From assembly GCA_964035545.1 (NCBI GenBank), contig OZ037768.1, forward strand, positions 977,501-1,041,500: a DNA stretch of 64,000 nucleotides, in the 5' to 3' direction. This stretch comes from Bugula neritina (taxonomy: Eukaryota; Bryozoa; Gymnolaemata; Cheilostomatida; Bugulidae). Numbering within the stretch: position 1 is the first letter of the stretch; every line of letters starts with the position of its first letter. The position numbers and the translations under genes are program-made. Of this stretch, positions 1,861 to 45,758 are shown piece after piece. The notes under the pieces are model-generated. The model was not told the DNA's origin. It saw nothing but the letters and a program-made list of their open reading frames with translations, and searched no databases.

Positions 1861-4800
1861 GCACACATGCAAACACACTAGTCTAGCTCTACTCTATAAT
1901 ATATAACAAATACACTTGTGTTTACAGTTGAGACCGCTGATGGAGATAGGAGCATTGTTGGCAACTGGCTTGTTTCTCTTACTGTATATTCCCATATACA
2001 TGCTCGCCTTGTATATCTTCTCCTATGGCTTCACCATGACCTCTAACAGTCAGGGACTTATACAAACACTATGCATTCTGGTAACTTGCTTTAGACATCA
2101 TATTTCACATACTGCATATCACTATCTGCTTGTTCATACTATAATATATATTACAGTTATATACAATACTATAATATATATTACAGTTGTATACAATACT
2201 ATAATATATATTACAGTTATATACAATACTATAATATATATTACAGTTGTATACAATACTATAATATATATTACAGTTATATACAATACTATAATATATA
2301 TTACAGTTGAATATAATACTATGATATATATTACAGTTGAATACAATACTATGATATATATTACAGTTGTATACAATACTATAATATATATTACAGTTGT
2401 ATACAATACTATAATATATATTACAGTTGTATACAATACTATAATATATATTACAGTTGTATACAATACTATGATATATATTACAGTTGTATACAATACT
2501 ATAATATACATTACAGTTGTATACAATACTATAATATATATTACAGTTGTATACAATACTATAATATATATTACAGTTGTATACAATACTATGATATATA
2601 TTACAGTTGTATACAATACTATGATATATATTACAGTTGTATACAATACTATGATATATATTACAGCTGAATATTGTCTTCTTTGTACCAATCGGAATGA
2701 CAGCGATGTCGGAGAACGCATTCTACAGAGACGCTTCGGATACCGCCCACCTTGCCTTTACATTCTTTAACCCATTTTATACTGCCGGAGGGTTCTTCCT
2801 ACACCTTCTCAAGGTACTGCTGACTTACTAAGCTCTCCTATTTGCTGACTTTGCTAACAGTACTTTCAAGTTGAGCGACATCAGAGAGTTTAGTTTGAGA
2901 AGAATATGATATTATCAAATGTTTCTCAATGATTGAGTTGATCAACTGACATGTGAAGCCACAATACTAGGTGCATACAATTACTATTGTGAGTTATCTC
3001 ACTCTGGCTAATGTTTGAATATAGCTGACGTGCGCAGTGTTTTGGGAAAACCTCAATTTATGTAGTACTCAGCTGGTTTGAAGCGAACTTCAAAATCTGT
3101 CTGCAAATTCTTGTTGTATCAGAAGTTTCTACTGGAATTGGAGCTTATGAACTTTGACCTTTTAGTATGCTGACCTAATTTTAGTTTGATGTGAAACAGA
3201 GCTACACCCAACAGAGTGATATTCCTGTGATAAGAATCAGGTCTTACTTTTTGTGGGAAAACAGACTTTTACCTGTTTTTATTGCTGTAAGTAGTTTTCT
3301 GAATAGTAGTAATATACTTAATTACATTGCGAAAAGTTGTTTTGGTTTGCATATGATAATGTATATATTATATTATATGTGATAGTATGTATGATAATGT
3401 ATATTATATGATATTATATGTGATAGTATGTGTGATAATGTATATATGATATTATATGTGATAGTGTGTGTGATAATGTATATATGATATTATATGTGAT
3501 AGTGTGTGTGATAGTGTATATATGATATTATATGTGATAGTATGTGTGATAGTGTATATATGATATTATATGTGATAGTATGTGTGATAGTGTATATATG
3601 ATATTATATGTGATAGTATGTGTGATAATGTATATATGATATTATATGTGATAGTATGTATGATAGTGTATATATGATATTATATGTGATAGTATGTGTG
3701 ATAGTGTATATATGATATTATATTTGATAGTATGTGTGATAGTGTATATATGATATTATATGTGATAGTATGTGTGATAGTGTATATATGATATTATGTG
3801 TGATAGTGTATATATGATATTATATGTGATAGTATGTGTGATAGTGTATATATTATATTATATGTGATAGTATGTGTGATAGTGTATATATGATATTATA
3901 TGTGATATTATATGTGATATCAATACGCAGTGTTGGCTCGGCACTGCGTCATAATAAATGGAAGAATATTTAAATTCAATAACAAATTAGGCAGCAAATA
4001 ACTCTATAAAATATCGTGTCTTAAAGTAATATTATGACTCATATTGTTCACACAAGTATGACTCATAATTATGAGAATATGACTCACGTTTAGCCCATCA
4101 TCTGGATCCCAATGCTGATACTCATACTGAAAATGGTTGATGGCGTTAGCTCTGGTAAAAGTCTCAAGTCGCAGTTCTCCAAGTACAAAGACGGACTGAA
4201 GGAGAACAAGAACGCGTACAGTATAGCGGAGGAGGACGACGATGTGGCGGAGGAAAGGATGAAAATTGAAATCGGGAAAAAGGGATCTTCTAGCTCTCTT
4301 GATGTTAGCAATAGTATGCAGTTGTATTGGCAGCATTACTATTACCAGTTTTAGCAGCGTCAGCAGTAACAGTAGTAGTGTCCGTAGTAGTAGTACTAGT
4401 AGTAGTGGTAGTGGTACTAGTGGTAGTAGTAGTAGCAGTAGTAGTAGTAGTACTAATGGTAGTAGAAGTAATAGTACTATCAATAGTTGTACTAGCTAGT
4501 CAATTTCCTCTACTGATGTTCCTCTTTTAGGCTGTGCTGCAAGCTCAAGGTTTGCACAAAAAGTTCATGCGGCCCGCAGCAAAGTCCTCTACGAAATCTA
4601 TGATTGCCGTGAGAAACTTGACCTTTCAAGTTTTGCCCAACGAGGTGCTGGGGCTATTGGGTCCAAACGGTGCCGGCAAATCAACCACAATGAATATGTT
4701 GACAGGAGAGATTACTCCTGATGCTGGAGTGGTGAGTGTATTGTCTCTGTCAGCTGTTGAACTACAAGAATATAATATAATAATGCATAATGTACATAAT

Positions 4801-7800: not shown

Positions 7801-10297
7801 ACTAAGATCTATATGTCTGTAAGCCTGGGTACATAAAGTTATAATTAGGAATATGGAATCTTATCTTTTCTTGTGTTTTGTAATCACTAGAAAATAAGCT
7901 CCCATTATAAATATCTGTGTATGTAACCTACATGACTCCTTTTAGGTGTCGGCCTTGCATTCAAAGACCACCTCATCAGCTCGTCTGAGTGGCACTAAGA
8001 AGGCGGAAGACGATGGCAGCCCACTGAGGGATGCTGTCAATAAATATTTCCTAGATGTGAAGGTCACCTTATAAACTAGTATACTGTATATTCTTATAAA
8101 CTAGTATACTGTATATTCTTATAAACTAGTATACTGTATATATTCTTATAAACTAGTATACTATATATTCTTATAAACTAGTATACTATATATTCTTATA
8201 AACTAGTATACTGTATATATTCTTATAAACTAGTATACTGTATATATTCTTATAAACTAGTATACTGTATATTCTTATAAACTAGTATACTATACATTCT
8301 TATAAACTAGTATACTGTATATTCTTATAAACTAGTAGACTGTATATATTCTTATAAACTAGTATACTATATATTCTTATAAACTAGTAGACTGTATATA
8401 TTCTTATAAACTAGTATACTGTATATTCTTATAAACTAGTATACTTTATTATATAATTACTGGGTTGTAGAAAGGAGTCCAGGACTCGAATAAATCAACT
8501 TCATTGCCTCAGGTGGCTCAAGTGGAAAATGATGACAAACTGGATAAAGACAGTGATCTGACCACCAGGTATGTACTCAGTCTGCCAGGTATATATTACC
8601 AGGTATATATACTACCAGGTATATACTACCAGGTATATACTACCAGGTATATACTACCAGGTATATACTACTAGGTATATACTACCAGGTATATACTAAC
8701 AGGTATATACTAACAGATATGTACTACCAGGTATATACTACCAGGTATATACTACTAGGTATATATACTAACAGGTATATATACTACCAGGTATATACTA
8801 CCAGGTATATACTACCAGGTATATACTACCAGGTATATATGCTACCAGGTATATGCTAACAGGTATATACTACCAGGTATATACTAACAGGTATATATAC
8901 TCAGTCTAACAGGTATAAATTATATTGTTTTAGTCGATCACATTTCACCAGTATCTACATACCTCTGCCTGCACCAATGCACCAGGCAGATGTGACTATC
9001 AAACCTTCTCTCAAACAATCTTCACAGAGTCTGAGGATGGGGCGAATGATGGCCCGAGTAAACAAGGTACTAGATTGAGGACTTAGGCTATTTGACTCAA
9101 CATGTGTTTTATATCTTCATATGTTGTATGCTTCTCTTTCATTTTATAAATTCATTATCAACATTGAATGACTTATTCTGTAATCAATATAATATTGATC
9201 ATTGGGAAAGTTGGGTGCATATTTGCTAAGTTTTGATACGTCGAGTTACATTAGATAATTGCTTCATGAAAAGTTGTGTTTTTGTAAAATACAGTGGATT
9301 TGCTCCGAAATCGAAAAATAAATTCAAAACTAGAAAACCCTAACTAAGCAGAAATTTCATCCTGCCAGAACTGTTAATATGAATAGTGTGATGTTGGACT
9401 CATTTCCCCCTTAGTTATTATTTCATAGACATTGACTTAGTATGAGCTTTACTCAAACCATGTGTATTTCTCTATCACTGTATATTATTGACACTTCAGT
9501 TGCTAATAGTTTTATTAAAGTACAATGATTTGTGTTTTTGAACATTAATAGAAAGAGTCCGCTGTAAAGTTTGAAAAGGTGGCTGTCTCAATGAACAGGG
9601 AGGCGGGAATTTTAACGGAGGTTGCAGATGAGGTATTTTATTACATTTACGATTATTTTCTTGTAATAGCCATGAAAGAAGGTTGTAAATTGATACTTTT
9701 ATTCCCAATGGTGTCAGAGTAAGCCCACAGAGTTTGTTTTTATGATGATGGCTAAATTTTATTAGATCCCAACTCTTTCACACTTTTTACAGCTTTGACT
9801 GTAATCGTCAACATTAGGTTTAATATAGATATACTCAGGTAGGCTTGTACTTTGCTATAGACTAACACTGATTATGTTTCAACAATATTCAGCAGTAATA
9901 TGTAAACGTAATGTTGTATTTCCTGCTTTTATTCTAACATTAAAATTAAAAAATATATACGAGCAGAAAGCAAACTCTGAATCTCTCTAACATGACCCTA
10001 AATCGAATAGACAACTCCTACTTAAATATAAAAACAATTGCCCTCCAGCTTAAGCCACTGACTAGTGATTTTAATTGTAAAACTACAAATATTTTAAAAT
10101 GAAAATTTTTCATGAAAAGCTGATCTGAATGCTGTCAATAAGAAACCTTCTCACATTTATTTCTATTGTCGCAGACGGAGGTTGTGACGCAGCCGTCTGA
10201 GAGAGTGGATTTGTTGTCACCAGAAATAGACACCAGCAGTGTGAACTCTTCTGAGAAGAAGTACGGGATCTCCAGTGAGAGGTCCCCAATACGCTAG
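169..10297 (+). CDS. ABCA-subfamily (ABCA5-like) lipid transporter, C-terminal half, 5' end off window
   Basis: Twenty exons: 169-287, 627-773, 1014-1157, 1421-1552, 1928-2080, 2667-2813, 3185-3286, 4094-4303, 4531-4731, 5109-5281, 5410-5485, 6137-6351, 6608-6846, 7151-7206, 7525-7617, 7946-8062, 8471-8568, 8934-9066, 9552-9632, 10175-10297 (stop). Phases join throughout and give 918 residues. The order is an extracellular segment, a transmembrane domain with six or so hydrophobic stretches (1014-3286, 4094), and one nucleotide-binding domain: Walker [10 protein letters not shown] (exon 4531), Q-loop [10 protein letters not shown], signature LSGGTKRK, Walker [15 protein letters not shown]-loop [29 protein letters not shown] and [11 protein letters not shown] are typical of ABCA second NBDs and closest, from memory, to ABCA5. 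ABCA proteins move lipids across membranes at the cost of ATP. A tail of about 214 residues after EQ (exons 7525-10297) has no recognised domain and is long for the family. The 4303 donor (GTTAGC) is weak but the only one in phase. Whether this is a full or half transporter cannot be seen. Confidence 0.88.
331..612. repeat. Minisatellite in ABCA intron
   Basis: Units built from gtgttactgtg and tatacagt alternate for about 280 bp upstream of the acceptor at 626. The ORFs across it are repeat artefacts. Confidence 0.9.
1568..1878. repeat. (CA)n microsatellite in ABCA intron
   Basis: About 310 bp of imperfect CA dinucleotides with scattered AA and CG interruptions, between exons ending 1552 and starting 1928. 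Confidence 0.95.
2141..2666 (+). repeat. 30-bp acceptor-site array, ABCA intron
   Basis: Seventeen 30-bp units followed by the true 3' splice site at 2666. Each unit carries tatattacag followed by ttg, matching the true junction tatattacag/CTGAATA; two units (near 2305 and 2335) read ttgaata, closest to the exon start. Units recur at exact 30-bp steps (ttacag at 2151, 2181 ... 2631, then 2661). Using a typical decoy would place an in-frame TAA six codons in. Confidence 0.93.
3350..3926. repeat. About 36-bp minisatellite in ABCA intron
   Basis: Unit built of tgatattatatgtgatag and tatgtgtgatagtgtata, about 15 imperfect copies. Fills most of the 3287-4093 intron. Confidence 0.9.
4366..4495. 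repeat. (AGT)n trinucleotide repeat in ABCA intron
   Basis: Imperfect AGT/GGT triplets just downstream of the exon ending 4303. Reads open in several frames, which explains low-complexity ORFs on both strands. Confidence 0.9.
5815..5945. repeat. Two-copy 60-bp tandem duplication
   Basis: Two almost identical 60-bp AT-rich units, containing tcatactaaattatctg, lie in the ABCA intron between 5485 and 6137. Confidence 0.85.
7285..7515. repeat. Minisatellite in ABCA intron
   Basis: Short units of the form gtgactgtatcgt, changing to 17-bp forms with tcattt toward the acceptor at 7524. The unit does not contain the splice junction. Confidence 0.88.
8075..8450. repeat. 24-26-bp minisatellite in ABCA intron
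   Basis: About 15 copies of a unit containing ttataaactagtatactg, starting about 10 bp after the donor at 8062. Confidence 0.9.
8561..8915 (+). repeat. 14-bp donor-site array, ABCA intron
   Basis: The exon ends ACCACCAG/GTATGT at 8568 and is followed by about 23 units of roughly 14 bp of the form actaccaggtatat, each repeating CCAG/GTATAT or AACAG/GTATAT. One unit has lost the site (acagatatgt). The array nearly fills the intron to the next exon at 8934. Confidence 0.9.
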
Positions 10298-10490
10298 AGG
10301 TGCTACAGGCTAAGGACCGATCTATGTACTGTACACACTTTATGTGGTTATGTGACTTTATGTGGTCATGTGACGTGATGCGGAGTAATTAATTTATAAC
10401 TTGCTATGAAAGTCCTTAAATATGCAGATATGATGTTTTTGAAGTAACACGTCTTTATGTCTTTCTCTGTATTTTGTTAGCTTTCAACTA

Positions 10491-10496
10491 AATAAA
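10491..10496 (+). terminator. Candidate poly(A) signal of ABCA gene
   Basis: AATAAA about 195 bp after the ABCA stop codon. Confidence 0.6.
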
Positions 10497-13400: not shown

Positions 13401-13679
13401 GTGTTTTCATGTCTGTGATATGTAATAAATCAATCAATCAATTGTTAAAATATTTATATATTTGACACCTTATTTAATTAGGTGATAATATTGCGTAATA
13501 GGCGTTAACACAGAAATTATCTGGTTGAAAATGTATTTAGGTATAATTGCAAAATTTTAGGTTAATGTATTACATTGCAGTGCTGAATTCACTCTAAAAC
13601 ATATAAATATAGTGTATACCACTTTTGTCTTTGATAATTCAGCTATATAACTTCACATAGCTAACAAAGTAAGCACTGT

Positions 13680-13891
13680 CACATGATGTCACATGCTATC
13701 ACATGCTGTCACATGCTGTCACATACTGTCACATGCTGTCACATGCTATCACATGCTGTCACATGCTGTCACATGCTATCATATGCTGTCACATGCTGTC
13801 ACATGCTATCACATGCTATCATATGCTATCACATGCTGTCACATGATGTCACATGCTATCACATGCTGTCACATGCTGTCACATGCTGTCA
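13680..13891. repeat. 10-bp satellite tcacatgctg
   Basis: About 21 copies of tcacatgctg/tcacatgcta, intergenic. The 10-bp unit is open in several frames, so ORFs here are artefacts. Confidence 0.95.
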
Positions 13892-14123: not shown

Positions 14124-14186
14124 GTAAGGGACAAGGGAGAGTAGGGGATAAGGGAGGGTAGGGGACAAGGGAGGGCAGAGGACAAG
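14124..14186. repeat. Short purine-rich tandem repeat
   Basis: Three to four copies of a unit like gggagggtaggggacaa, followed at 14233-14275 by a pyrimidine-rich stretch of roughly complementary composition. Intergenic, upstream of the arrestin gene. Confidence 0.7.
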
Positions 14187-14646: not shown

Positions 14647-17600
14647 ATGGATTTTATAGATGGTCTGGATATAGAATTAGATAAGGAGTTTTATTACCCA
14701 GGGGAGACAATCAATGGAGCGGTGAACATATCATGTATAGCGAATGCTAGGATCAGAGGTACACAGTGTTTACTCAAGTCTCTGCCACTAATTATATATC
14801 TCTCTGTATGCATGCAGTAACTTAATTAGCAGGAAAATAGCATTTTTCCAACAGTAACAAGTTTAGCATAATAAGGTTTGATTTAAAAGGTTTGGTAGTT
14901 CAACGCTGACAGCAACTTCCTATAAAATCAATACACATAGATAAATACTCTCCCAGTCGGCAGCGTGTCTTGATTGCTTCCTTCTATCCATACAAGCTGC
15001 CCATTTCTGAAATATTCAACGATTTAATCTTCCATTTTAAATATTGTTCTTTGATTTGACTTGAGTACAGAATACAGATTCTTTCTCATTTGGCCTTGTT
15101 ACTGTTGAGTTTTCATTCTGAAAATTTTGGCATTTCACCGTTGCTTACAAGTTGCTACACAACTGCACATCGATACACACAACCTTGTGTTAAGTTGCCA
15201 CACACTTCAAACCATTCTTATCACAGAATAAGTAACGTGCATTTCTCACGCGTATAAGGGAAGTGAGAATCGAGTTCTCTTTTCTAGGAAAGTTGCTATC
15301 ACTACTAGTCGTAGCTGTAGAGTGGTGTGCAGCTGTTAATGAAGAAAAGTTGTGTAATTAAATATGTAGATACTGCAAACCCTGGCCAAGTCACACATTA
15401 GGAGTAGGTTTACACAGCCTGTTATATAATCACCTCTTACTATTTAGATACTATTTATTTTCTATAATTGATCAGTGGTTTCGCAGAAAATAATTAAAGG
15501 CCAGGGTATATCTGCAGAAAGCATTATTTATTGGCAGCTATGCCGGGCTGTCAGATATTATATGCAGAAATATTATTAACTGGCCATTAAATAAATACCT
15601 GCATAACCTAGAGGTTGTTGTCTGCTAATTAGTGTAATATGCAGCACTTTGCTACAGTCTAATTCTGCAGATAATCTCTGTATTCATCTTAATACCTTTT
15701 AGTTTATAGTTAGATATAACAAACTTTCTTAATTAAGAATTGTGTATATTGTGGAATATATTACGCTGAGGAAATGTAGACTTTTTAATAATTTCAGTTT
15801 CATTTTGAATCCAAAAGCAGTAAAGAGAAGTAGCAATATAACATAACTAGTAATTAGTGTGTATAACATCTGCTATGAGTTATATTATATGCTATATGTT
15901 AAAAGTACATTAAGTATAACAAATATAAAATGCGCTGCTTGGTATTTGAAGTGAAACCAATTCAAAAGCCGACTTTATGTGCAAAATTTAACTCAAGAGG
16001 AAAGTTATTATACGTCACAAATAATAAAACTAGACGTCTGATTTAGTTATGTAATGCAATGCAATGCAATGTAACATAATGCATTATAATGTTATGATAT
16101 TTTGAATGGGTGGAAGCAAATTTATGAGAAACGCTTCTAAAAGAGGTACATTGCTGTGAAAAATACTTAACTACTCAGCTGATACACATATTTGATATTT
16201 TTCTCAGAATATTACCAAACATGAGAAATTAGTATAATTTATTCAGATTGTTTCTTATAATTAATGGCTGTTGGAGACAAAACTTATTAAGTCATGATTT
16301 ATTTTGTTGTTTTTGTGATCTCCGGCCCTTTTGATTATCTAATAGCCTAAATGAACAGAATTGTAGCAATTTAACAGAAATACATTGAAATGGTTCCAAT
16401 GAGTTTCACATATAGTGCTACTCTAGTTTGCATGCATGCCTCTGTGAAACAATATTAGAAAGTATAAACTTAACCTCAGCTTAACACGATAACATAGGTA
16501 CTTATGCAGGTTATTATTTCTGCCCTATGTTCTTTGCCGTTCGGGGCTAAGAATAAGTTTCCTGACAAACTCAGCTACGTGTTACTATTTCATGACAGTA
16601 TTTCTATATTATTCTGAAATAGTGGATTGCTCTGCATTATTTACTGTCTAATTATTTAGGGCTAGCAGTATCGTTGACTGGCGTGGTGCAAGTTCAGTGG
16701 AAACTCGTCAAGAATGGAATGATCTACACTGTGAGGAATTCCCGTACACTCATGGATAACAAACAAATAATACTAGGTCAAAGTAAGTAAGTGAAGGTCA
16801 GAGTAAGTAAGTGAAGGTCAGAGTAAGTAAGTGAAGGTCAAAGTAAGTAAGTGAAGGTCAGAGTAAGTAAGTGAAGGTCAGAGTAAGTAAGTGAAGGTCA
16901 GAGTAAGTAAGTGAAGGTCAGAGTAAGTAAGTGAAGGCCAAAGTAAGTAAGTCAAAGTCAAAGTAAGTAACTGCCAACCCAGTAAGTATGTAAATGAAAA
17001 ATGATTGATTACTAGACCGTAGATTTAAAAGGTGCAGGGGTATAGATTTTGCTAAGTTCAAGTTTGAGGTGTAATTGATTTAAATTTCGAAAGCAGACAA
17101 TTTTTCCCACAACTCTAGTCAAAAGTTGGAGTGGTTTGATCAGTTGGGACTTGACCTGCATACGATGGGTTGCTATAAGTTTCTCAGCCAAGTCAAAATC
17201 AATTAGTTGTGAAGGACGCATATCTACAAGTTCTGTGCTGCAGTTATAATAATGCTGATTAGTACCTTAGAGTCTGCGTAGTGTAGATAGCTACAGGCAC
17301 ATGCGCACAGCAACTAAACTATTAGTTGAACGTTAGTTCTAACTATTCAGTGGATCAATAAGGAGCATCAGTACAGAGCTCGGACAAGTGCCCCTATAAG
17401 GACTACAAGTGGCCAAGATTGACTTCACTCAACTATACTTGTATTGTAACCTAATTTGCCCGACTATAGCTCTCCACTCAATCCACTCCAGTTATCTGCA
17501 CGGCACTTCAACTGGTGTCATTGCTTCACTCCGCAACTACCGATATTTTGGGAACATTTTCCTGAAGTTGGTGCTTACTTATAGCCAAGAAAATGGTTCA

Positions 17601-28900: not shown

Positions 28901-31900
28901 GTATACAATTACAAGTATAGTATACAGTTACAAGTATAGTAATACAGTATAGTAATACAATGTATAAAGTAAAAAGCATACCCGGCCGCCAGCCACAACT
29001 TCAAGAGCTGTCGAGGTAGAAACGTCCTTGACCTGAATAAGTTTAGCCACAGGACCCCTCACTTTCCTCCTATCAAAGTTCTTGACTGGGTCCACATAGT
29101 CAAACTGTAGACTTGGAAACCTGAGGTAAGGTTGAGTAGTGAGTGAAAGCATTCATACCAAAGAGAAAGAACTAAACTACGGTGGTGAAAATTAGCTGAG
29201 TTCTCAGCTAGTATTCAGATAGAAATAGGTCTATGATGAAAAACTCGAATGCTGTTACATGAAGAAGAAATGGAATTGATGACAACACTAATAGATATCT
29301 GTAGATGACTAGGAAATAGCGAACTGACCTGTCAGACAAGGAGTTATACTCTCTCTGTAACATCTCAGCTTGTCTAACTAAGTTAGCTCTCTCATCTCTT
29401 ACACTCTCCAGACTACCCTCTGTGTAGTCCATCTTCTTCTGGTCCTCCTGTAACACCTCACTGTACTATATATAACTATACTGTATATAACTATACTGTA
29501 TATAACTATACTGTATATAACTATACTGTATATAACTATACTATATATAACTATACTGTATATAACTATACTGTATATATAACTATACCGTATATAACTA
29601 TACTGTATATAACACTACTATATATAACTATACTGTATATAACTATACTATATATAACTATACTGTATATAACTATACTATATATAACTATACTATATAT
29701 AACTATACTGTATATATAACTATACCGTATATAACTATACTGTATATAACTATACTGTATATAACTATACTATATATAACTATACTGTATATAACACTAC
29801 TATATATAACTATACTGTATATAACTATACTATATATAACTATACTGTATATAACTATACTGTATATAACTATACTGTATATAACTATACTGTATATAAC
29901 TATACTATATATAACTATACTGTATATAACTATACTGTATATAACTATACTGTATATAACTATACTATATATAACTATACTATATATAACTATACTGTAT
30001 ATAACTATACTATATATATAACTGGGTGTGACTAAAATGGGTGGCCACCCGGTGTCGCGGGCCGTGACACCCATTTTAGTCAAAATCCCCCTTATGACTA
30101 AAATGGGTGTCGCGAACAATTTTCGTTTTATTTTCACATTTTTAGACAGTTGTGACAATTGTAATCATTTTTAAACTATTCTTCAGTAAATAATGGACAT
30201 CTCACAATCATTTAAACCAAAAAACATAAATAAATAATGACAAAATTGAAATAATTATGACGAAAATAGAACTTATCAAGAGTTATCTTTCCTCATCAAA
30301 AATTGAATTTTCACCTAATTTTACTGTTATCGTTATGATCATAGACATGTTAACTTATGAAACATATAATTTAAACTATTAAAAACACTGTGAGCAATAT
30401 TAACAAACAAAAATGTCTACAAAATGTGAAAATAAAACTAAAAATCTTCACGACACCCATTTTAGTAAAAACACCCACGAATGACTAAAATGGGTGCCAC
30501 GGTGATTTTTGCTTTATTTTTAGCTTTCTGGGCGGTTTTGGATACTATAAATTATGCATGTTAAAACTTTTAGTTGCTTTTACTAATCAAAATTATTAAA
30601 ATTTTTAATACTTACAATATTAGAAAAAAATCATAAAAACAAAACTAAGAACTAAGGGAAGATAACTCTAGGGGGTGTCACTGATAGTTTCGGTTTTTAT
30701 TATATTTTATTATTATTGTAAATTATTATTTAATACTACCGTCATTTAGAGTGAAACAGTTATTATATATTAGAGTTTTTCTAAAGTTTTGATCAACAAC
30801 CAATTTAGCAACAAGAATTGCCAAAAAGCTAAAAAATAAAGCAGAAATCACCGTGACACCCATTTTAGTCATTCGTGGGTGTTTTTACTAAAATGGGTGT
30901 CGTGAAGATTTTTAGTTTTATTTTCACATTTTGTAGACATTTTTGTTTGTTAATATTGCTCACAGTGTTTTTAATAGTTTAAACTATATGTTTCATAAGT
31001 TAACATGTCTATGATCATAACGATAACAGTAAAATTAGGTGAAAATTCACTTTTTGATGAGGAAAGATAACTCTTGATAAGTTTTATTTTCGTCATAATT
31101 ATTTCAATTTTGTCATTATTTATTTATGTTTTTTAGTTTAAATGATTGTGAGATGTTCATTATTTACTGAAGAATAGTTTAAAAATGATTTCAATGGTCA
31201 CAACTGTCTAAAATTGTGAAAATAAAACGAAAATTGTTCGCGACACCCATTTTAGTAATAAGGGGGGATTTTGACTAAAATGGGTGTCACGGCCCGCGAC
31301 ACCGGGTGGCCACCCATTTTAGTCACACCCTATATAACTATACTGTATATAACTATACTATATATAACTATACTGTATATAACTATACTGTATATAACTA
31401 TACTATATATAACTATACTGTATATAACTATACTGTATATAACTATACTATATATAACTATACTGTATATAACTATACTGTACATAACTATACTATATAT
31501 AACTATACTACATATAACTATACTGTATATAACTATACTATATCACTATACATAACGATACAAGCGATAGAGACACCTGCAACTTGCTGATCTGCTTAGC
31601 TATATTATCCAAGTTAGTCTTATCCTTGTCGTATTCCGTGGAGGTCTTCTTGAGGTCGGCCCGTTTTTTCTTCACCTCATCCTGGGAGTGTTTCACCTTC
31701 ATCTGACAGTTCTTGATGTCCGTCTCGGCCTGACTGATGGCATTCTTAGCAGCTGCAGATCAAAGAGTGAGACTGAGTAGTAGAACTAACAGTTAGTGAG
31801 ACTAAACAGTAGAACAAAGAGTGAGTAAGACTGAGTAGTGGAACAACAGTGAGTGAGACTGAATGGTTAAACTATTACTAAGTTACTGATCATTGTAATA

Positions 31901-34900
31901 AAGTGACTGAATTATAAGTGACGCAGAGTGACAACCTAAACTGAGGGATTAGAAGATAAAGATAGCCCGCATCCTCACCGATCAGCTGGTCGTTGAGGGT
32001 GGCGTCTTCACCATCCTCGTTACTAGCCAGTCCAGCAGACTCGGTCTGGAACTTCTTCTGTGCAGCAGCAAACGCCTCCTTCACTTCCTGTCGCTGCCGA
32101 ACAGCAGTAGCATTTGCTGTCGTGTTGCTATCTAGCTCGACTTTCTTCTTGCTCAGAACAGCTTCATCCTACAACAGGAGATACTCTTTCCTACCTCCTC
32201 CATTCAAGAACAAATGAGTGGTAGAATTATAGCCTTGAGCACTACATTGAGGTCAAGGACAGAGTGGGTAACGATGTCATATTACAGGACAGAAATATTG
32301 CCTCTTGGAGTCTACAAAGTGTTGCATGACACAAAGTGCTGTACGACACAAAGTGTTACACTCACGTCACTCAAATGTTTTTTCAACTCCTTCAGTCTTT
32401 TATTTTGAGATTTGATCTCTTTAACTGACTCATCATAATTTGAACTGGAGACAGCGTCAGCTTGCTGCTTCTCAGACAGATCTTTCTCTAGCTCCGTACT
32501 TTCTCCCTACAGACAACAATTCTCCCTATATACGTCTGCAGTTAGAGTATATACGTCTGCAGTTAGAGTATATACGTCTGCAGTTAAAGTATATACATCT
32601 ACAGTTAGAGTATATACGTCTGCAGTTAAAGTACATACGTCTGCAGTTAGAGTATATACGTCTGCAGTTAGAGTATATACGTCTGCAGGTAGAGTATATA
32701 CGTCTGCAGTTAGAGTATATACGTCTGCAGGCAGAGTACATACGTCTGCAGGTAGAGTATATACGTCTGTAGTTAGAGTATATACGTCTGCAGTTAGAGC
32801 ATATACATCTGCAGTTGGAGTATATACGTCTGCAGGCAGAGTACATACGTCTGCAGGTAGAGTATATAATATGTCTGCAGTTAGAGTATATAATACGTCT
32901 GCAGTTGGAGTATATAATACGTCTGCAGTTAGAGTATATAATACGTCTGCAGTTGGAGTATATAATACGTCTGCAGTTAGAGTATATAATACGTCTGCAG
33001 TTAGAGTATATAATACGTCTGCAGTTAGAGTATATAATACGTCTGCAGTTGGAGTATATACGTCTGCAGTTGGAGTTTGTAATACGCACATTGTTTATCT
33101 GCTGCTCTCGCTCTTTGATTTCAATCTCTAAAATCTGAACCAGGTTGTTGATCTCCTCGCATCTGTCTTGCAGTTGTTTGATCGACTCTTGGATGTTGGA
33201 GAGTAGCTGAGCAGAAGATCCTTTCTCTTTCTCGGCACAGACAAACTGTAGACACAGACAAGTCAGTTAGAAACTCCAGTCAGTACAGAAGATGTGTCCA
33301 GTTTAATCATTACTTACTTACCTGTCAGGTAATGTCAAGTTACTCACCTGCCAGGCAATGTGAAGTTTATGCAGATGCTCGATCTCCCTCACTATCTTCT
33401 GGTATTCGATATAAGAATCTCTCTCTCTCTTTAACCTCTCCAATTTTGGTGCCGTTTCTTCCTCTATCAACTGGCAGATTAAATAATATTCAGAATATAA
33501 AAACACATACTGAGCACGACTCTAACCTACTGAGTACGTCTGTAACTTACTGAGTATGACTCTAACTTACTGAGTATGACTCTAACTTACTGAGTATGAC
33601 TTTAACTTACTGAGTATGACTCTAACTTACTGAGTATGTCTGTAACTTACTGAGTACGTCTGTTACTTACTGAGTACGTCTGTAACTTACTGAGTAGGTC
33701 TCTAACTTACTGAGTATGACTCTAACTTACTGAGTCAATCTCCCTGACTTTACTTTCTTTTTTCTCAATCATTTTCTCAGCACTTTCTCTTTTTGATTGA
33801 TAAAGTCTGGTGCCTGCAGCTTCTTCTATCATTGACAATATCTACACCAAAATATTATCACTGCTGACTATATCAAAACCAAAATATTATCACTGTTGAT
33901 TAAACCTTCGACACAAGAGAATGACATCACATTACATGACTTAGAATAATTCTAAACACCATTTCTACAGAAAATCAGCTGTGAATATAAACCAACTTCT
34001 TAGTGCCACCCTACATGTATCATATCTTAACGTTAGCCAGAACTCGGGCTATCAAACAAGACAGTGGATATGGGAAGGTGAACCACCAAACAAACCTCAG
34101 GGGGTTTCATGTTCAGCACTTTGGTGATCCGCCCCTGCATAATGAGGAAGTGGGGGTTGTTGATGTTGAGGGATACTGACTGGAACAGATCGGCCACTTT
34201 CTGGTTGGTTGCAGCTATACCATTGATCATGTATTTGTTTCTTCCACCCACCACTACCTGGAGTAGAGAGTAGTATATAGTACACACTACATCTTATATG
34301 CATTACATAGCAGTATTATAATTCGGTATTACAGTGTAGTATAACATACTTACTATACCGAAAGGGCACTATCACTAACCTGTCTAGTGACTACTATCTC
34401 ATCATACTGACTGTACCCAAAAGGACACTGGTCAGCATCACTGTTATCAAACGTAATACTGACGGTTGCTTTGGTAATTCCTGCCTGACCATTCTTGTAG
34501 ACCAGCTCTTGTAGGCTTGTGGCTCGAACCTAAACATAAAGGGGAAATATTGGTTTTAACGATTAAGTCATTAACTTTTACAGTCAGAATGCAATTAATT
34601 ATTTTATAATTTGATTAATGGCAAAAAACTGAAATTTATTAATTTGAAATAAAAATTCATTTTGATTATGTTGCCCTCCAAGAACTTCACTGTGGGTAAA
34701 CGCTTTCGATTCCCATTTTGATTCTATTAAGTCATTTAAGTGACTTAGACTCTTAGAGGACATGATGATGATGATTGTCTCATTGAGTTACTCATTTTTT
34801 CCAGTTGATTCTATATTATATTCGGCAATAGTACAACTAATAACATAGCTTTGATGCCTAGAAACAAAATATATACGTATTAAAATATCCCTTACGTGAT

Positions 34901-35063
34901 GAAGGTTTGAAATTCCCAAGACAAAACATATTGAATCTAAAATGTTAGATTTCCCACTTCCATTCAATCCAGTTATAGCATTAAACAGAGCGTCAAAGCC
35001 GGTTATTTCAGTTCTCTGAGCATAAGATTTGAAACCGTCGAGAACAATTGATTTTATATACAT
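22935..35063 (-). CDS. SMC2: Structural maintenance of chromosomes protein 2, condensin core ATPase
   Basis: Twenty-four exons, in transcript order: 35063-34896, 34529-34380, 34257-34096, 33841-33731, 33470-33348, 33245-33090, 32506-32366, 32168-31979, 31752-31577, 29456-29329 (or from 29465), 29120-28982, 28772-28626, 28276-28136, 28017-27826, 27689-27540, 27305-27189, 26870-26723, 26517-26378, 26234-26121, 25321-25193, 24164-24038, 23728-23506, 23402-23255, 23153-22935. All phases match; total about 1212 residues (human 1197). SMC2 pairs with SMC4 in condensin I and II and compacts mitotic chromosomes. Visible: Walker A GLNGSGKS near residue 32, long coiled coils, hinge ([38 protein letters not shown]), second coil, signature [19 protein letters not shown] split between two exons, Walker [12 protein letters not shown], and the SMC2-type [16 protein letters not shown] before a basic tail. 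Start ATG gives the family's [15 protein letters not shown]. Introns carry ten or more minisatellites and one foldback element, yet the frame is intact. Confidence 0.98.
23741..24041 (-). repeat. 23-bp donor-site array, SMC2 intron
   Basis: On the minus strand exon 24164-24038 ends CTGG/GTACGCTGT, and about twelve following 23-bp units repeat CTAG/GTACACTGT. Four units read CTAG/GGACACTGT, so their GT is lost. The array fills the intron nearly to the acceptor before 23728. Confidence 0.88.
24176..25119. repeat. 16-bp satellite, SMC2 intron
   Basis: Over 900 bp of agtaaacagagtgagt, nearly 60 copies with occasional 3-bp insertions. Repeated [13 protein letters not shown] ORFs on the minus strand are artefacts. 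The unit does not contain either splice junction clearly. Confidence 0.97.
25331..26085. repeat. 33-bp satellite, SMC2 intron
   Basis: About 20 copies of a unit containing tactcagactatactctg and tacatacagtatac, with shorter 20-bp variants. Fills the intron between exons 26121 and 25321. Confidence 0.95.
26245..26360. repeat. AT-rich tandem repeat, SMC2 intron
   Basis: About five units of tatatactaagtgtaatat in the intron between exons 26378 and 26234. Confidence 0.85.
26536..26743 (-). repeat. 21-bp donor-site array filling an SMC2 intron
   Basis: On the minus strand the exon ends CATGTAGAGCAAG/GTGGGTGA, and nine imperfect 21-bp copies of that junction (13 exonic plus 8 intronic bases) follow. 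The array occupies practically the whole 205-bp intron. Reading through the true donor meets TGA at the third codon. Confidence 0.93.
26936..27152. repeat. 15-bp satellite, SMC2 intron
   Basis: About fourteen copies of cacactatactcacac/cacactatactcgcac. Confidence 0.93.
27351..27536. repeat. About 21-bp satellite, SMC2 intron
   Basis: Roughly nine copies of cagctacaagactacagagc, ending next to the donor of exon 27689-27540. Confidence 0.92.
27695..27748. repeat. Short 17-bp tandem repeat
   Basis: Three copies of acattacatacaactac beside the acceptor of exon 27689-27540. Confidence 0.8.
28028..28133. repeat. Short tandem repeat, SMC2 intron
   Basis: Six to seven copies of aggtgagtgttgacagg-like units between exons 28276-28136 and 28017-27826. 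Confidence 0.85.
28767..28955 (-). repeat. 19-20-bp acceptor-site array, SMC2 intron
   Basis: On the minus strand the true acceptor is atacttgtag/CTGTATAAC at 28772; about nine units upstream repeat atacttgtagctgtatact, carrying the acceptor and the first seven or so exonic bases. Two units have lost the AG (ttgtaattg, ttgtaactg). Confidence 0.93.
29461..30023. repeat. 15-bp satellite, SMC2 intron (left part)
   Basis: Copies of tatataactatactg in the intron between exons 31577 and 29456. On the sense (minus) strand units read tatatacag and tatatatag. The real acceptor lies at its edge, with two in-frame choices nine bases apart (before 29465 or before 29456). Confidence 0.95.
30024..31330. 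mobile_element. Foldback element (non-autonomous, long inverted repeats)
   Basis: The first 505 bp or so and the last 505 bp or so are inverted copies of each other with only scattered mismatches, separated by a loop of about 300 bp (30529-30823). Ends read GGGTGTGACTAAAATGGGTG and its complement. The 16-mer gactaaaatgggtgtc or its complement occurs five times per arm in alternating orientation, at the tip and again next to the loop. The same nine bases, tatataact, flank both ends, compatible with a 9-bp target duplication but also with the 15-bp satellite around it. No transposase ORF. Long arms and a 9-bp duplication recall Mutator-like foldbacks, but superfamily is not provable here. It splits the 15-bp satellite in an SMC2 intron. 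Confidence 0.9.
31331..31550. repeat. 15-bp satellite, SMC2 intron (right part)
   Basis: Same tatataactatactg unit as 29461-30023, resuming directly after the foldback element; the two parts were one array before insertion. Confidence 0.95.
32521..33082. repeat. 21- and 24-bp satellite, SMC2 intron
   Basis: About 24 copies of tctgcagttagagtatatac; units right of about 32860 have an added taa making 24 bp. All frames with multiple-of-three units stay open, which explains the long ORFs on both strands. Confidence 0.95.
33509..33736 (-). repeat. 20-bp donor-site array, SMC2 intron
   Basis: On the minus strand exon 33841-33731 ends GACTCA/GTAAGTTAG. Eleven 20-bp units then repeat TACTCA/GTAAGTTAGAGTCA, nearly all with intact GTAAGT (one GTAGGT). 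Reading past the true donor meets TAG at the third codon. Confidence 0.95.
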
Positions 35064-39237: not shown

Positions 39238-40338
39238 CTAGTGTACAAGTATCGCCATCTCGCCATTACTTAGTCTACAGTAGTGTCGAAACTTTCAATT
39301 CTCTGACTCAAATAATTCACTATTTAAATCTAGTAGGAAGACGTCTGCGGAGAGAAATAGTCACTGCAACTGCTTATAATCATTTATTATAATTTGTTCA
39401 CTTATTTTCTGATACATGTAATTTTGGAATTTTTTAGTCTCCTTATGCATGAATTTGAGCCCCTGAAATGCAAGTGACTGACTAATTATATCAATATCCC
39501 AATGATTACACAGATTTTCTATTATGAATTACATTTATAAATTTATTTATGAATTAAAAGACTTTCTGTACCTTGTAAATATTTGTATACAGTAACAGGA
39601 AAAAGTAACAATTCTACCCAACTTGTAAATGACAGAATGACATTTGCAAATCAGTGAAATTCATAAGTTTATCCACATACCAAATCAGTACAAAAATGGG
39701 AAGCTAACTTCAAATAGTATTCTATACCACAGTATAATAAAATAAAAAAGTATGACAATATAATGTAATTATTCGATTGACAATTGGATAGCATAAAATC
39801 TGGGCATAAAAATGAATCTTGAAAATATTTTTGAGAACTGAGCAAATATTGAATGTCCTAGAAACGGTGCATAAGTTGAATTCTCCGAATGAAGAGAAGT
39901 ATCAAAATGATTGCTGGATGAGTACAGACTCTGTATTGGCGGGCATTGATAGGAGAATGTATGCATACAGTCATACACACAGCATAGACAATAAAACTAG
40001 CTTACAAAGTTATATAAAATTACGTATTTACTGCATATATACCCTCATTGCAGCTAACTAAAGATAAATACTAAAATATACTTTTTTAGGAGTAAAAATA
40101 TAAAACTTGCTGAATCTGTATTAACTATTGATCCCTGAAACCTAAGATACTGTCGAGTGAATTGCATAGGCATAAGGAACACTATCTCGCCAAGGGAAGA
40201 CGACCACTAGTGGAGCTCTCTAGGAAGAGGGGAATACTGAACTGTATAACAAAATGGCACGTGTGATTGTCGTATGGTAACCCTGCCGTTGAAACGCCAT
40301 GCAAGTGCGACCCTTGGTTGACCCCGAGTTCAATCTTA
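39238..40338. other. Convergent 3' region, DPH2 and FYB-like gene
   Basis: 1.1 kb between two facing stop codons, AT-rich, no gene seen. AATAAA at 39736 and 39741 (+) could end DPH2 mRNA. TTTATT at 39542 on + could serve the minus-strand gene, but is about 800 bp from its stop. Confidence 0.45.
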
Positions 40339-43300
40339 TCACAAATCTAACTCCTCGTATATCTGCTCCTCTGTAAAATAAATTATTTGGTGTCTCATAA
40401 ATTAACAGGGAATTAGATAGACATGAAATTCCTGTACAAATTACCCACAGGAAACCTAGGACCAGCACCACTGTTCTAAAATGGTTGACTTGAGTTTAAA
40501 ATCCCTAAATGGAGAAGCCATTGCACCCGACTAAAGCCAACAATCTACAGCTTCAACTTCAACATTAATGCAGGTCTAACATTTACTGGTTGAATAATTT
40601 TCCAGCACAATAATAACTCGAAGCCGTTAAAACAGTAAATTACATTGTTTTCATAGTTCATTCTAGAAGAAAAACCAGAAAAAGTAAACCAGCATCACTA
40701 ACCAGAGAGTGGGTACATACCGGAATCTTCCAAGGCCACTGTAGCTGAGCCGTTACCTACAGACTCTTCCTCTAGGTCTATCATATTAGAGGCATCAACC
40801 AGCCCAACTGCAAACAGCACATGTATGTTGTAGAACTTAACGGAGTAGAACTTACAGTAGCAGGTATACGTGCAGGTAGAGATTACCAAGTAGCAGGTAT
40901 GTGTGCAGGTAGAAACTACCAACCACACATATTACAATGTAATGTAATTAAAGTACTCAGATAAAGGATACACCATTTCTCCTATTCCCTCGTTCTAAGG
41001 CTGACCACATTATACCAGGCAGCCATATGAGTAGTGATTCAGGCAGCCATATGAGTAGTGATTCAGGCAGTCAGCTAGTCTATTATAACTCACCAATCTG
41101 AGTTTTCACGTTCTTCACAATCCACTTCCCTGCGGGACAGTTATCTTTCCGTATGAGAGCCACCGTCTCCTTCGCCTGCATCGCCAGCATGTTCTTACCG
41201 CTGCCGGAACACGCTGACTTAGCCTGAACATAGTGACTAGACACCAACTCGTCCTCTGATATCTGTGTAACGTGTATGTTATATAATCATATAATACTGT
41301 ATATAATATATTACTGTATATAATATATTACTGTATATAATATATTACTGTATATAATATATTACTGTATATAATATATTACTGTATATAATATATTACT
41401 GTATATAATATATTAGTGTATATAATATATTACTGTATATAGTATATTACTGTATATAACATATAACTGTATATAACATATCACTGTATATAACATATAA
41501 CTGTATATAACATATAACTGTATATAATATATTGCTGTATATAATATATTAGTGTATATAGTATATTACTGTATATAATACATTACTGTATATATAATAT
41601 ATTAGTGTATATAATATATTACTGTATATAGTATATTACTGTATATAACATATAACTGTATATAACATATCACTGTATATAACATATAACTGTATATAAC
41701 ATATAACTGTATATAATATATTGCTGTATATAATATATTAGTGTATATAGTATATTACTGTATATAATACATTACTGTATATATAATATATTAGTGTAAG
41801 TGTATGGCCAACCTTAAGTTTCTTTATCAAAGCTTCTTGTTCTTTAATTTCATTCATTCTAATCTGCAACATGAAATCAGCATCTAACACAACACACTAC
41901 AGTATCTTACAGCTACTACACAGTACACACTACAGTATCTTACAGCTACTACACAGTACACACTGCGCTATCTTACAGTTACTACACAGTACACACTACA
42001 GTATCTTACAGCTACTACACAGTACACACTGCGCTATCTTACAGTTACTACACAGTACACACTACAGTATCTTACAGCTACTACACACTACACTGTATAC
42101 ACTACACAGTACACTTTATACACTACACAGTACACTTTATACACTACACAGTACGCTGTATACACTACACAGTACACTGTATACACTACACAATACACTG
42201 CACACACTACACAAAACACAGTACACACTACACAGTACACTGTATACACTACACAGTACACTGTATACACTACACAGTACAGTATAATTATACACTACAC
42301 AGTACACTGTATATACACTACACAGTACAGTATATACACACACCTTTTGAAGTCTTTCTTGTTCTTTCTTTTCTTTTTTCTTTTTTTCTTTTTCTTCTTT
42401 AGTGAGTTTCTTATCAGAAGAGAGAGTTGAGCTGGGTGCCTCTAAGGGGGTGCTTACGCTCCTGTATAACACATAACATGTGGCAGCACTGCTTAGCGTG
42501 AGCAAATAGCCTCAACCTGATGGGACAATCAGTATACCCATCCCTCACAGCAGTAAAACTGGAAATGGAACTAAAACTAAAATTTAAAAATTGTTTTTAT
42601 CTAAAACGTACTATTTTGTCATTTTTGAATAAATTCCCGGCAATATTTTCAAACAGCTACAAAAGCTCAATAGTAACACCCAAAATAACTTACTGGTGAG
42701 TAACAGTAGTTACCAGCCAATCACGGACATCAATAGAAACAAAGAGCCAATTACGAACCCCGTAACATACTGTCACACAACAGCAGACGGCCGAGCAGTG
42801 CTACTTACGCTTTCCTAGGAGTGTCTTCATCAAACTCTTCATAAACTTCCTGGAGATCTTCTTCAACTGTCGGGGCAGCACCACCAGCGTCTCCATCATC
42901 ATACAGCTCTTCACCAGGATCTAAGGCAAAGCATACCAGTCTACAGCTTCTAACACAGCATAACCTCACAACTGCTGGTCCAGTACCTCAAACCACTGAA
43001 CCAGTACCACTAACCACTGGGCCAGCACCACTAGCTACTGGACCAGCGGCTCTAACCACTTGACTATGTGGCAATACACTAAGGCTGTGGGTACACAATA
43101 CACTAAGGCTGTGGGTACACAATACACTAAGGCTGTAGGTACACAGTACACTAAGACTGTAGGTACACAATACACTAAGACTGTAGGTACACAGTACACT
43201 AAGGCTGTGGGTACACAATACACTAAGACTGTAGGTACACAGTACACTAAGGCTGTAGGTACACAATACACTAAGACTAGGGTACACAATACACTAAGAC

Positions 43301-45758
43301 TGTGGGTACACAATACACTAAGGCTGTGGGTACACAATACACTAAGACTGTAGGTACACAGTACACTAAGGCTGTAGGTACACAATACACTAAGACTAGG
43401 GTACACAATACACTAAGACTGTGGGTACACAATACACTAAGGCTGTGGGTACACAGTACACTAAGGCTAGGGTACACAATACACTAAGGCTGTGGGTACA
43501 CAGTACACTAAGGCTGTGGGTAAACAATACACTAAGGCTAGGGTACACAGTACACTAAGGCTATGGGTACACACCTGCGGCTGGGACAGGTAAAGGCTTT
43601 TCCCTCCGACTAGGAAGTGCCGGAGCTGACGGAGAAGGTGGAGGAAGCTTCGGGAGGTGTGGCTTAGGAAGAGGCGGGCTGACGACCGCTGCTTCTAGCT
43701 CCTCGTCCTCTTCTGTCATTGATTTGCTGCCGATATACAGTATAACTACTGAGGTACAGCATTGTGATTTGCTGCCGATATATAGTATAACTACTGAGGT
43801 ACAGCATTGTGATTTGGTTTAAGGAAGACAATAGAAGGAATGTAGGAGACATCTGTTATACAGTAGAAGTTGTTGATAGGCAGATAAATTAGGAACTTTT
43901 TTCTAACAGTAAGTCTGCCACACCCACACACTACAAGCAGTCACTGCTGGGAACTTGTTGAACATTATACTAAAAAATATGTCAAAATGTGTAAATTACG
44001 ATCAGCCTGCTATTCTAAATGTTAGAAAATAAGACCTTCAACTTCCTGTCATGTGACACTTACATTAGCGAGTTGGAGTTACAATCTTCATCTTTTCTTC
44101 CACCACAAACTCGCAGCTCTACACCAGTTTCAGAGTTCACGAGTTTCGCCACCGGCAGCGTGATGCCGAGTAGAGACTTGCACTTTGTCGGCTTATTGAA
44201 CTTTCTAACAAAAGTTAACTTTTTGAACTTTTTCCCGGCATTGTCAGTCTCAATCGGCAAATCAGGCGAGTTCTCTTTATTCGCCGCAGAACTCAGCAAT
44301 TTGCGCTCGGGATCCACCGCTCTCAGCGAGTTTTTTCTTTTCTCGATAAGTACAATGTCAATGGGCGTCTGGGTGCCGTCTGTGCCATTCACTGCCGATT
44401 TGCTGCCAATTCCAGTCGGCTTATTTGGTGATACGGATGGCTTGGTGGAGGAGATGGCGGGTTTGTTAGGGGGAACTGCTGGCTTGATATTCAGTGGTGA
44501 CTTGACGGGTTTCACAGCGAGTGGAACTCCATTCTGTAAGACCAGAGCAGACGGTTACTTGACTAAATAGTTGCTAACCTCATCCCCCCCCCCCCCTGAA
44601 CTGGAGATGTTACACAGATGCAGTGGGCAAGTAGTGGGCATGTGATATGCTTACAAACAGACAACAGCAAAAGGAATAAGGAAACTATTTTATTAAACTG
44701 TCCACTCTTTTATAGCAGCAGTTTCATTTCATGAAAAAGTTGGTGTAATGCTGAGTTGACAATGTTCTATTTCACTGCCAAAATATGATTAGATCTACTA
44801 AACCACTGATAGAAATCTACTAGATTTCTAATATAAATTTACTAGACTTCTAGTATAAATCTACTAGATTTCTAATATAAATCTGCTAGACCTCTAGTGT
44901 AAATTTAACAAATATCTACTGCGAGTTAACATTTTGCTATTCCCATGGTATGCATTTGGAGTAAGCGTGAAGTGAAAGTTTGAGAGTGTTAGACTACCAG
45001 TAGAATGTGTTGAAGAGAAAGAATGTTTAGTACTATGAAAACACAAAACACCACTAGACTGCAAATAGCAAATACTTGAGGTTGAAGATAGTGCAGTTTG
45101 AGTGATGACAAGAAAGCTGTGGCATTAGTAGGCCAGTTAACACACACTTTGACAACCACAGTGCTTTAAGGAAGGAGGAATGGAAGAGAGAGTGTAATAG
45201 TTGGGTGTGGAGGGATAATCACTTTGAATAGAGTGCAGATGTGATACTTACTGGAAGAGCAAGTTCATCTTCCGGCTGAAATAGTGAATATTAAGTGAAC
45301 ATTAAATGAGCAAAGTGAACTATTACTGTTCCAATTCTATTATCAAAGCGAATATATAAAATGACAGAAAGTTGAACAGAAAAGTTCCCAATGTAGAGGA
45401 GAAACTAGCAGCTATAGCTCATGGGAAATCCTAACAGAGGGGAAATCAAAGTTGTAATATAAGAGATGGAAGCTGCTAATCTAACTACTACGTAATCTGG
45501 AGGGAATAATTTGAAGTATTAATACTAAGAAATGGTGTGACACATTCAGCAGTTGTGTGACAGAGCACGAGTCATGTGACAGAGTAAAAGTCATGTGACA
45601 GTGTTATGTGACAGTGTCATGTGACAGTGTCATGTGACAGAGTAAAAGTCATGTGACAGTGTCATGTGACAGAGTACGAGTCATGTGACACTTACATTGT
45701 TTGTCTTGCTGCTGAGAAGAGCCATTCTTTCCTTCAAAGTCATCCCAACTTCGGCCAT
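40339..45758 (-). CDS. FYB/ADAP/PRAM1-like cytosolic adaptor with helical SH3-like domain
   Basis: Ten exons in transcript order: 45758-45696, 45275-45252 (24-nt microexon), 44533-44064, 43726-43575, 42920-42809, 42461-42344, 41863-41813, 41262-41094, 40807-40721, 40370-40339 (stop). Phases match; 425 residues. Layout: basic/proline N-terminal half with KPxxPxNKP repeats; proline-rich SH3 ligand stretch (PPLPKPHLPKLPPP) near residues 190-220; acidic segment with tyrosines in EELYDDGD and EVYEEF; Lys/Glu helix (LTKEEKEKKKKEKKEQERLQ); then EQEALIKKLK, VALIRKDNCPAGKWIVKN, IGLVDASNMIDLEEES, resembling the helically extended SH3 domain of human FYB (compare its NPEGKWLGR...YGYI...IDYDSL); C terminus EEQIYEELDL. 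YEEL and YEEF resemble Src-family SH2 ligands. FYB proteins link tyrosine kinases to SKAP adaptors, VASP and integrins. Assignment rests on order of motifs and remembered homology; alternatives are other SH3 scaffolds. Confidence 0.68.
41283..41800. repeat. 17-bp satellite with higher-order duplication, FYB-like intron
   Basis: Units of tatataatatattactg. A block of about 190 bp with a distinctive order of variants (tagtata, aacatataac, aacatatcac, tattgctg) occurs twice in tandem, roughly 41413-41600 and 41601-41797. Confidence 0.9.
41883..42338. repeat. Compound satellite in FYB-like intron
   Basis: First half has units of ctacagtatcttacagctac and acacagtacacactgcgcta; second half has ctacacagtacactgtatac units. 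The sense-strand donor GTGTGTGTATATACTG at 42343 resembles the adjacent units. Confidence 0.9.
43066..43572 (-). repeat. 24-bp satellite beginning at a donor, FYB-like intron
   Basis: About 21 units containing cactaaggctgtgggtacac, with a repeated internal order of variants. On the sense strand the real donor CGCAG/GTGTGTACCCATAG is followed by units reading tGTGTACCCACAG, so the first 14 intronic bases recur, although CAG is not next to GTGT in the copies. Confidence 0.9.
43721..43810 (-). repeat. 45-bp tandem duplication of an acceptor, FYB-like gene
   Basis: Two 45-bp copies, 43721-43765 and 43766-43810, differing at one base. Each contains tatcggcag/CAAATC, the acceptor of exon 43726-43575 with its first six exonic bases. 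Using the upstream copy (exon from 43771) would insert 15 codons without a stop, in frame with the rest. Confidence 0.9.
45538..45692. repeat. Minisatellite next to first FYB-like donor
   Basis: Units of gtcatgtgacagagtaaaa and gtcatgtgacagt, about nine copies, ending at the donor of exon 45758-45696. Confidence 0.9.

Follow-up and report, generated by a model that had tools for sequence, protein, structure and literature searches.

What places tandem arrays at the borders of exons? The question is raised by a stretch of 64,000 nucleotides from the bryozoan Bugula neritina, here called the window (contig OZ037768.1, C4:977501-1041500, in an assembly of 215.8 Mb in 295 contigs), in which minisatellites lie in the introns of several neighbouring genes. 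A first-pass annotation had listed ten such arrays in ABCA, arrestin, SMC2 and FYB-like genes, all of which exist (the numbers given for them are array starts), and had proposed that the repeat units contain the intron's own splice junction, duplicated by a recurrent process at exon borders. We found two patterns that are mixed, namely units that copy exon bases and arrays that merely run up to a splice signal. We therefore regard it as probable that boundary minisatellites, known elsewhere as 'mirages', occur here together with ordinary intron minisatellites, the former arising when a junction is duplicated, the copies multiply within the intron and selection protects the exon side.

Introns were fixed by spliced protein alignment, which yielded a set of 50 (23 in SMC2, 22 in an ABCA5-like transporter and five in an arrestin-domain gene), and the control genes POLR2B (19 introns) and PRPF8 (36 introns) brought the total to 105. 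For SMC2, which is nearly complete on the minus strand with 24 exons at 22983-35063, the guide was a human SMC2 sequence; one zero-length exon was ignored, and every chosen border is GT-AG, although the aligner permits little else. The SMC2 protein shares 77% identity with its counterpart in Watersipora subatra, a cheilostome bryozoan (second-best match 56%), and an 801-bp stretch of the gene had no second full-length match among the matches listed, best first, in this single haplotype. The ABCA5-like gene starts upstream of the window and runs to approximately 8.6 kb; we kept 21 introns on which four of four references agreed and one supported by three of four, and excluded those on which the four references disagreed. 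In the arrestin-domain gene, spurious exons of 0 and 6 nt were ignored, and the donor at 16783 could alternatively be 16787 according to the ab initio model.

Arrays were called with Tandem Repeats Finder (TRF), and rows with a period below 7, with fewer than 1.9 copies or overlapping a better row were excluded, which reduced 125 rows to 81 for the window and 10 kb upstream. At least one array with a period of 7 or more was present in 32 of the 50 introns. Altogether, 39 arrays lay in 22,997 bp of intron, and none lay mainly within the 7,939 bp of tested exon. When every array was placed at random within its own intron, 15.2 were expected to have an edge no more than 20 nt from a splice site, compared with 26 observed (P = 2 × 10−6), so that position is indeed the feature the arrays share, as had been claimed. 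Both parts of the set showed the excess: in the ABCA and arrestin genes, 10 of 17 arrays lay this close (3.3 expected, P = 9 × 10−5), and in SMC2, 16 of 22 (11.9 expected, P = 0.009). At donors, eight arrays came within 5 nt or overlapped the site (3.5 expected, P = 0.007). Acceptor-side edges were concentrated at distances of 11-14 nt (9 observed, 1.64 expected, P = 1 × 10−5), a value that is optimistic because the interval was picked after the distances had been seen; for the broader interval of 6-17 nt, 12 edges were counted and 4.9 expected (P = 6 × 10−4). By TRF coordinates, eight of the 39 arrays extend into the exon and 31 do not.

We then asked what the units contain. The intron side of the junction is copied at 41 donors and 45 acceptors among the 105 introns. 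For the exon side, the bases flanking each junction were compared with the equivalent bases in each intron copy, with random coding 12-mers as the null and, at donors, the last two exon bases kept fixed in them. The window genes were significant for donors (Fisher P = 7 × 10−4, 21 tested) and acceptors (P = 0.005, 22 tested), and the control genes for neither (P = 0.58 and 1, respectively); across all 105 introns the donors remained significant (P = 0.0098). An earlier, coarser test in which real exon ends were swapped gave P = 0.003 to 0.08 for donors, significant in three of four settings.

Six homology-fixed introns are clear cases, with 8–12 of 12 exon bases matched and a different sequence in each. 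Three are donors, all in SMC2 on the minus strand. The array of intron 17 (array 26532-26735, intron 26518-26722) has a 21-bp unit in 9.8 copies that consists of 12-13 exon nucleotides plus the donor at 26722/26723 (12/12, p = 1 × 10−4). In intron 5 (33246-33347), a two-copy duplication at 33314-33367 reaches 20 nt into the exon (10/12, p = 5 × 10−4). The array of intron 4 (array 33508-33735, intron 33471-33730) repeats 20 bp 11.4 times, with the unit reading ACTCA/GTAAGTTAGA (a slash marks the junction) at the donor 33730/33731; it matches 9/12 bases (p = 0.014), and 5/8 over 8 nt (p = 0.29). The other three are acceptors. In SMC2 intron 11 (28773-28981, acceptor 28772/28773), the array at 28767-28947 has a unit with the CTGTAT of conserved LYN codons (10/12, p = 2 × 10−4), and in SMC2 intron 3 (33842-34095), a two-copy duplication at 33833-33899 reaches 9 nt into the exon, into ILSM codons (8/12, p = 0.015). 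In ABCA intron 14 (plus strand, 2081-2666, acceptor 2666/2667), a 30-bp unit repeated 17.9 times at 2136-2673 extends 7 nt into the exon (8/12, p = 0.013). The duplications in SMC2 introns 5 and 3, which were absent from the earlier list, look like first stages of boundary arrays and stand next to junction arrays with approximately 9-18 copies.

The remaining arrays on that list are more varied. In intron 2 of the arrestin-domain gene (ARRDC-2; plus strand, 16783-18093), a donor array at 16775-16970 (20 bp, 9.8 copies, AGGTCAAA/GTAAGTAAGT, donor 16782/16783) matches 8/8 exon bases (p = 0.002) but only 8/12 over the longer span (p = 0.12). After a predicted C-terminal ABCA exon (8513-8568, ab initio, plus strand), the donor array CCAG/GTATATACTA at 8569-8897 (TRF row 8585-8897) matches 7/8 (p = 0.02) and 8/12 (p = 0.08). 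Two 45-bp copies in the FYB-like gene, read from the sequence at 43720-43816 on the minus strand, hold an acceptor (intron end 43727) and the exon bases CAAATCA, and the match at 43726 is 7/8 (p = 2.5 × 10−4) or 7/12 (p = 0.02). Against random coding 12-mers, the exon match was not significant for ABCA intron 7, for the acceptor-side array of arrestin-domain intron 3 (array 19652-19761, intron 18330-19767, plus strand) or for the FYB-like array at 43072-43573 on the minus strand, which starts at a donor 43573/43574 placed by reading or ab initio. SMC2 intron 21 (minus strand, 23729-24037, donor 24037/24038) contains an array at 23743-24038 that lies 14 nt from the acceptor and touches the donor only in the TRF 46-bp row; our tests relied on the 23-bp row, which stops at 23972, 65 nt short. 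The claim that the junction lies within the unit was thus upheld in part: seven of the ten listed arrays are at homology-fixed junctions and five of them overlap it (2141, 16776, 26536, 28767 and 33509), whereas exon bases were demonstrated for no more than roughly half of the listed arrays. Among the others, the array listed at 19655 ends 6 nt short, that at 23741 depends on the 46-bp row, and 8561, 43066 and 43721 rest on ab initio calls or reading.

Which came first, exon or repeat? The repeated exon bases encode LYN in SMC2 intron 11 and ILSM or ILAM in intron 3, each shared by all 13 SMC2 rows of the alignment, and AWQ or AYQ in intron 5, present in nine of 13; the 13 rows include the model from this genome and the human guide sequence. 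Because codons conserved across animals should predate the arrays, the exon was the source in these three introns. This finding speaks against a reversed order in which a copy within a pre-existing array was taken over by the spliceosome as a splice site, the exon end being derived from the repeat by intron sliding or gain. Such an order has been proposed in reports on amphioxus globins (PMC3087553) and human tandem repeats (PMC2812944, PMC10809524), and the units of ABCA intron 10, CTGCAG/GTAAAAC, could in principle be used as either site, but for the arrays described here we consider it very improbable. That intron (L009:8694-9003, in the stretch adjoining the window) has a 23-bp unit, GTAAAAC...CTGCAG, which begins like a donor and ends like an acceptor.

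The most distal copy gave the best or tied exon match in four of six arrays (SMC2-17, ARRDC-2, SMC2-11 and a donor array at another locus, L028, described below), ties being weak evidence, and neither the best nor a tied match in SMC2-4 and ABCA-14. Such distal matches fit a single founding duplication that then grew while its interior became homogenised, as described for amphioxus. The 39 consensus units differ between introns when compared by eye, without an all-against-all comparison, although some share AT-rich words, which agrees with the first-pass view that no single family was inserting. A mobile intron (introner), in which one sequence family inserts at many sites together with its own splice sites, was rejected, as the units differ and in several introns derive from the local exon. 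Strong donor hexamers occur in nine of the 39 units in sense and in three in antisense, compared with a mean of 1.2 and a maximum of 5 in 500 shuffles that preserve base composition only. An arrestin-domain intron also holds, at 20287-20856, 57 copies of ACTGTAAGTA with a donor hexamer in each, 339 nt from the donor and 115 nt from the acceptor.

We infer the following route and its order in time. A short segment straddling a splice junction would be duplicated in tandem; the additional copy would land on the weakly selected intron side and could grow by slippage or unequal exchange. Selection would preserve the exon copy and working splice signals, so that the genuine site remains the outermost copy. 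Other arrays would start inside introns and expand until the donor or acceptor tract is reached, so that introns fill to the edge of the splice signals. Junction-specific duplication may possibly proceed via short direct repeats in the splice consensus, replication slippage or R-loops; the ultimate origins named in the first-pass annotation (R-loops, replication-transcription conflict, repair of breaks) are conjecture.

How much of the pattern would filling explain by itself? Ordinary minisatellites could start anywhere in an intron and spread until purifying selection stops them, in which case contact with a junction would reflect saturation and not origin. The pile-up of edges at 11-14 nt coincides with the inner boundary of the acceptor tract. 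Less than 70 nt of non-array sequence is left in 12 of the 32 array-bearing introns, below the shortest of the 105 introns (82 nt). Both observations fit arrays that grow until they meet sequence protected by selection. Three minus-strand SMC2 introns illustrate this: the array at 32527-33076 fills intron 6 to 13 nt from the donor and 20 nt from the acceptor, that at 26249-26368 fills intron 18 to 9 and 14 nt, respectively, and the 57.8-copy array of intron 20 (24178-25120) ends 13 nt before the acceptor. Similar AT-rich arrays are, moreover, common near contig ends, as detailed below. Arrays halting at the edge of a splice signal, mainly 11-14 nt before acceptors, are explained by selection on the signal without seeding, and junction seeding as a single explanation, as put forward in the first-pass annotation, holds for only part of the arrays: it is backed by the six introns with exon bases and the three with the exon as source, while most arrays stay out of the exon. 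However, filling leaves unexplained the exon bases in copies, the two-copy duplications that straddle junctions and the L028 array, and we judge it possible but unlikely as the sole cause. Pure coincidence of short introns, long arrays and a splice consensus resembling simple repeats deserves hardly any credence, since tests conditioned on intron length, array length and coding sequence reject it overall; in its favour are the behaviour of SMC2 within 5 nt and two array-free introns that pass the exon-copy test, both given next.

Several results weigh against the preferred reading of junction-seeded arrays mixed with ordinary ones. The proposed comparison of arrays with junctions, run on the 50 window-gene introns, returned the excess within 20 nt but none within 5 nt of acceptors (3 arrays against 3.5 expected); within 5 nt, SMC2 alone was at expectation (6 of 22 against 5.0), and arrays with three or more copies reached only P = 0.06. 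Five introns hold more than one array, and arrays were handled as independent. A minority of arrays show significant overlap with the exon, and the units of ABCA intron 7 copy the intron side only. Acceptors were not significant across all 105 introns (Fisher P = 0.28) or in any of the four settings of the swap test (P = 0.08 to 0.64). Because the array-free introns ARRDC-1 (p = 0.006) and SMC2-1 (p = 0.0115) also scored low in the exon-copy test, single p-values near 0.01 prove little. The borders of array-bearing junctions come from homology and not from RNA, and the junctions at 8561, 43066, 43721 and L028 were placed by an ab initio model, for which 16.7 kb served as training sequence, or by reading; this gene finder matches most SMC2 introns and those of its training gene, POLR2B, but places tiny exons within arrays (in SMC2-17 and SMC2-6, for example). 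Finally, POLR2B (C1) and PRPF8 (C4, 4.16 Mb) contain only seven arrays in 55 introns, none above 3.4 copies.

Boundary arrays are therefore not a property of exon borders everywhere in the genome. Our generality sample consisted of 19 ten-kb stretches at spread positions chosen blind, four stretches near contig ends and the two control genes. Arrays of three or more copies cover 17% of the window and 16% of the adjoining stretch L009, compared with 0-4.8% in 19 of 23 other stretches and 7%, 14%, 20% and 77% in L034, L024, L028 and L021, respectively. By simple count, 3 of the 13 intron arrays of POLR2B, PRPF8 and DNAH6 come within 20 nt of a splice site. Credible junction arrays were found, by judgement, in only two of the 23 unselected stretches. 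L028 (C7, 1.18 Mb), a blind choice, has an array at a predicted donor whose most distal copy matches 13/14 exon bases (p = 5 × 10−5; 0 of 20,000 draws equalled this match); the gene, which has no Pfam match, bears the tentative label angiomotin. L019 (C3, 4.72 Mb) encodes a dynein heavy chain with DNAH6 as best match, which joins gaplessly to DNAH6 chains of solved structures at PDIQ/RQLP; at this acceptor a 7.4-copy array extends 4 nt into the exon, with an overlap that is not significant (p 0.07-0.48). Further candidates in these stretches are at L026:382, which is 9 nt away from a predicted donor, at L033:6884 and at L028:6835.

Arrays resembling that of SMC2 intron 11 were found within 0.5 Mb of contig ends at 19 of 34 loci, compared with 1.4 expected, among the matches listed on C1-C7; loci were clustered by hand with one position per cluster, and contigs C8 and C9 were excluded. 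A simple subtelomere model was nevertheless rejected, and location alone does not predict array density, because the four near-end stretches had only 0-7.4% array cover. A bolder generalisation is that tandem repeats arise again and again at exon borders wherever minisatellites turn over rapidly, most of all towards chromosome ends. Entire genes, SMC2 among them, would then consist of exons set between largely repetitive introns in which some repeats copy the intron's own junctions; the spliceosome would pick the outermost of many near-equal sites, and the act of splicing or transcription would single out the junction for duplication. We consider this rather doubtful. Three stretches differ in other respects: L021:2338-10000 (C3:17.84 Mb) is mostly filled by a 49-bp satellite in approximately 155 copies, possibly centromeric; L027 (C6:1.98 Mb) has 10 kb at 47% GC, compared with mostly near 33% in other stretches, and 5.7 kb called coding; and L001, a small contig (C275) that probably belongs to an associated microbe, has a GC content of 50% and an open frame of 629 aa that includes an ABC domain.

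The first-pass annotation had also supposed that the spliceosome must choose among many near-identical sites, which holds for some arrays. Donor copies scoring at least the real site minus 0.5 number 10 in SMC2-4, nine in ARRDC-2 and five each in SMC2-17 and L028, and acceptor copies number five each in SMC2-11 and L019. No near-equal decoy was found in eight arrays (SMC2-21, SMC2-3, ABCA-1, ABCA-3, ABCA-14, ARRDC-3, 8569 and 43573), and array-poor control introns also hold 0-6 near-equal sites, with six in PRPF8-6.

The window also contains a diphthamide-synthesis gene, a Ras-family GTPase and the proline-rich FYB-like gene, whose protein has a single weak homologue. In the open frames of the Ras-family gene, two similar stretches follow each other at 59573-60718, perhaps a duplicated pair of mutually exclusive exons.

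PMC3087553 and PMC3902484 describe amphioxus mirages in Adh3, the globins BflGb6/BflGb9, troponin C and PGBD5, with normal splicing despite the splice-site copies and with length instability. As in amphioxus, units in some introns here run across the exon-intron border, at donors as well as acceptors, and carry exon bases, units differ by intron, and many copies have AG/GT; the 10-72 bp units of the Adh3 mirage are a further likeness. The bryozoan arrays differ in belonging to another phylum, in occupying many introns of neighbouring genes at once, in having been tested statistically and in the pile-up of edges at the acceptor tract. Human variable internal tandem repeats (PMC2812944) are likewise minisatellites of approximately 30 bp at exon-intron borders, but in that case the repeats change splicing and give rise to introns within segmental duplications, whereas the clearest bryozoan cases are in the conserved SMC2. 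Dual-specific AGGT sites in tandem repeats (PMC10809524) resemble the repeated AG/GT copies that could serve as donor or acceptor; however, AGGT in sense occurs in just five of the 39 bryozoan units (3.7 in shuffles). Human variable number tandem repeats are also concentrated near chromosome ends according to PMC7608644, but they exceed 60% GC, whereas the bryozoan near-end arrays resemble an AT-rich one. The literature searched contained no description of boundary minisatellites from a bryozoan, which does not prove their absence, and the main text of a bryozoan genome paper (PMC13326412) lacks the words tandem repeat, satellite and intron.

The kind of array is thus already known from amphioxus, and what is new is another phylum and the unusual density. 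Boundary minisatellites had been noted gene by gene in lancelets; here, most introns of three neighbouring genes carry arrays, several of them junction-seeded, from two copies to dozens. Such a genome would allow numbers to be put on the origin of arrays, on splice-site choice among equals and on the contribution of such arrays to intron gain or boundary shifts.

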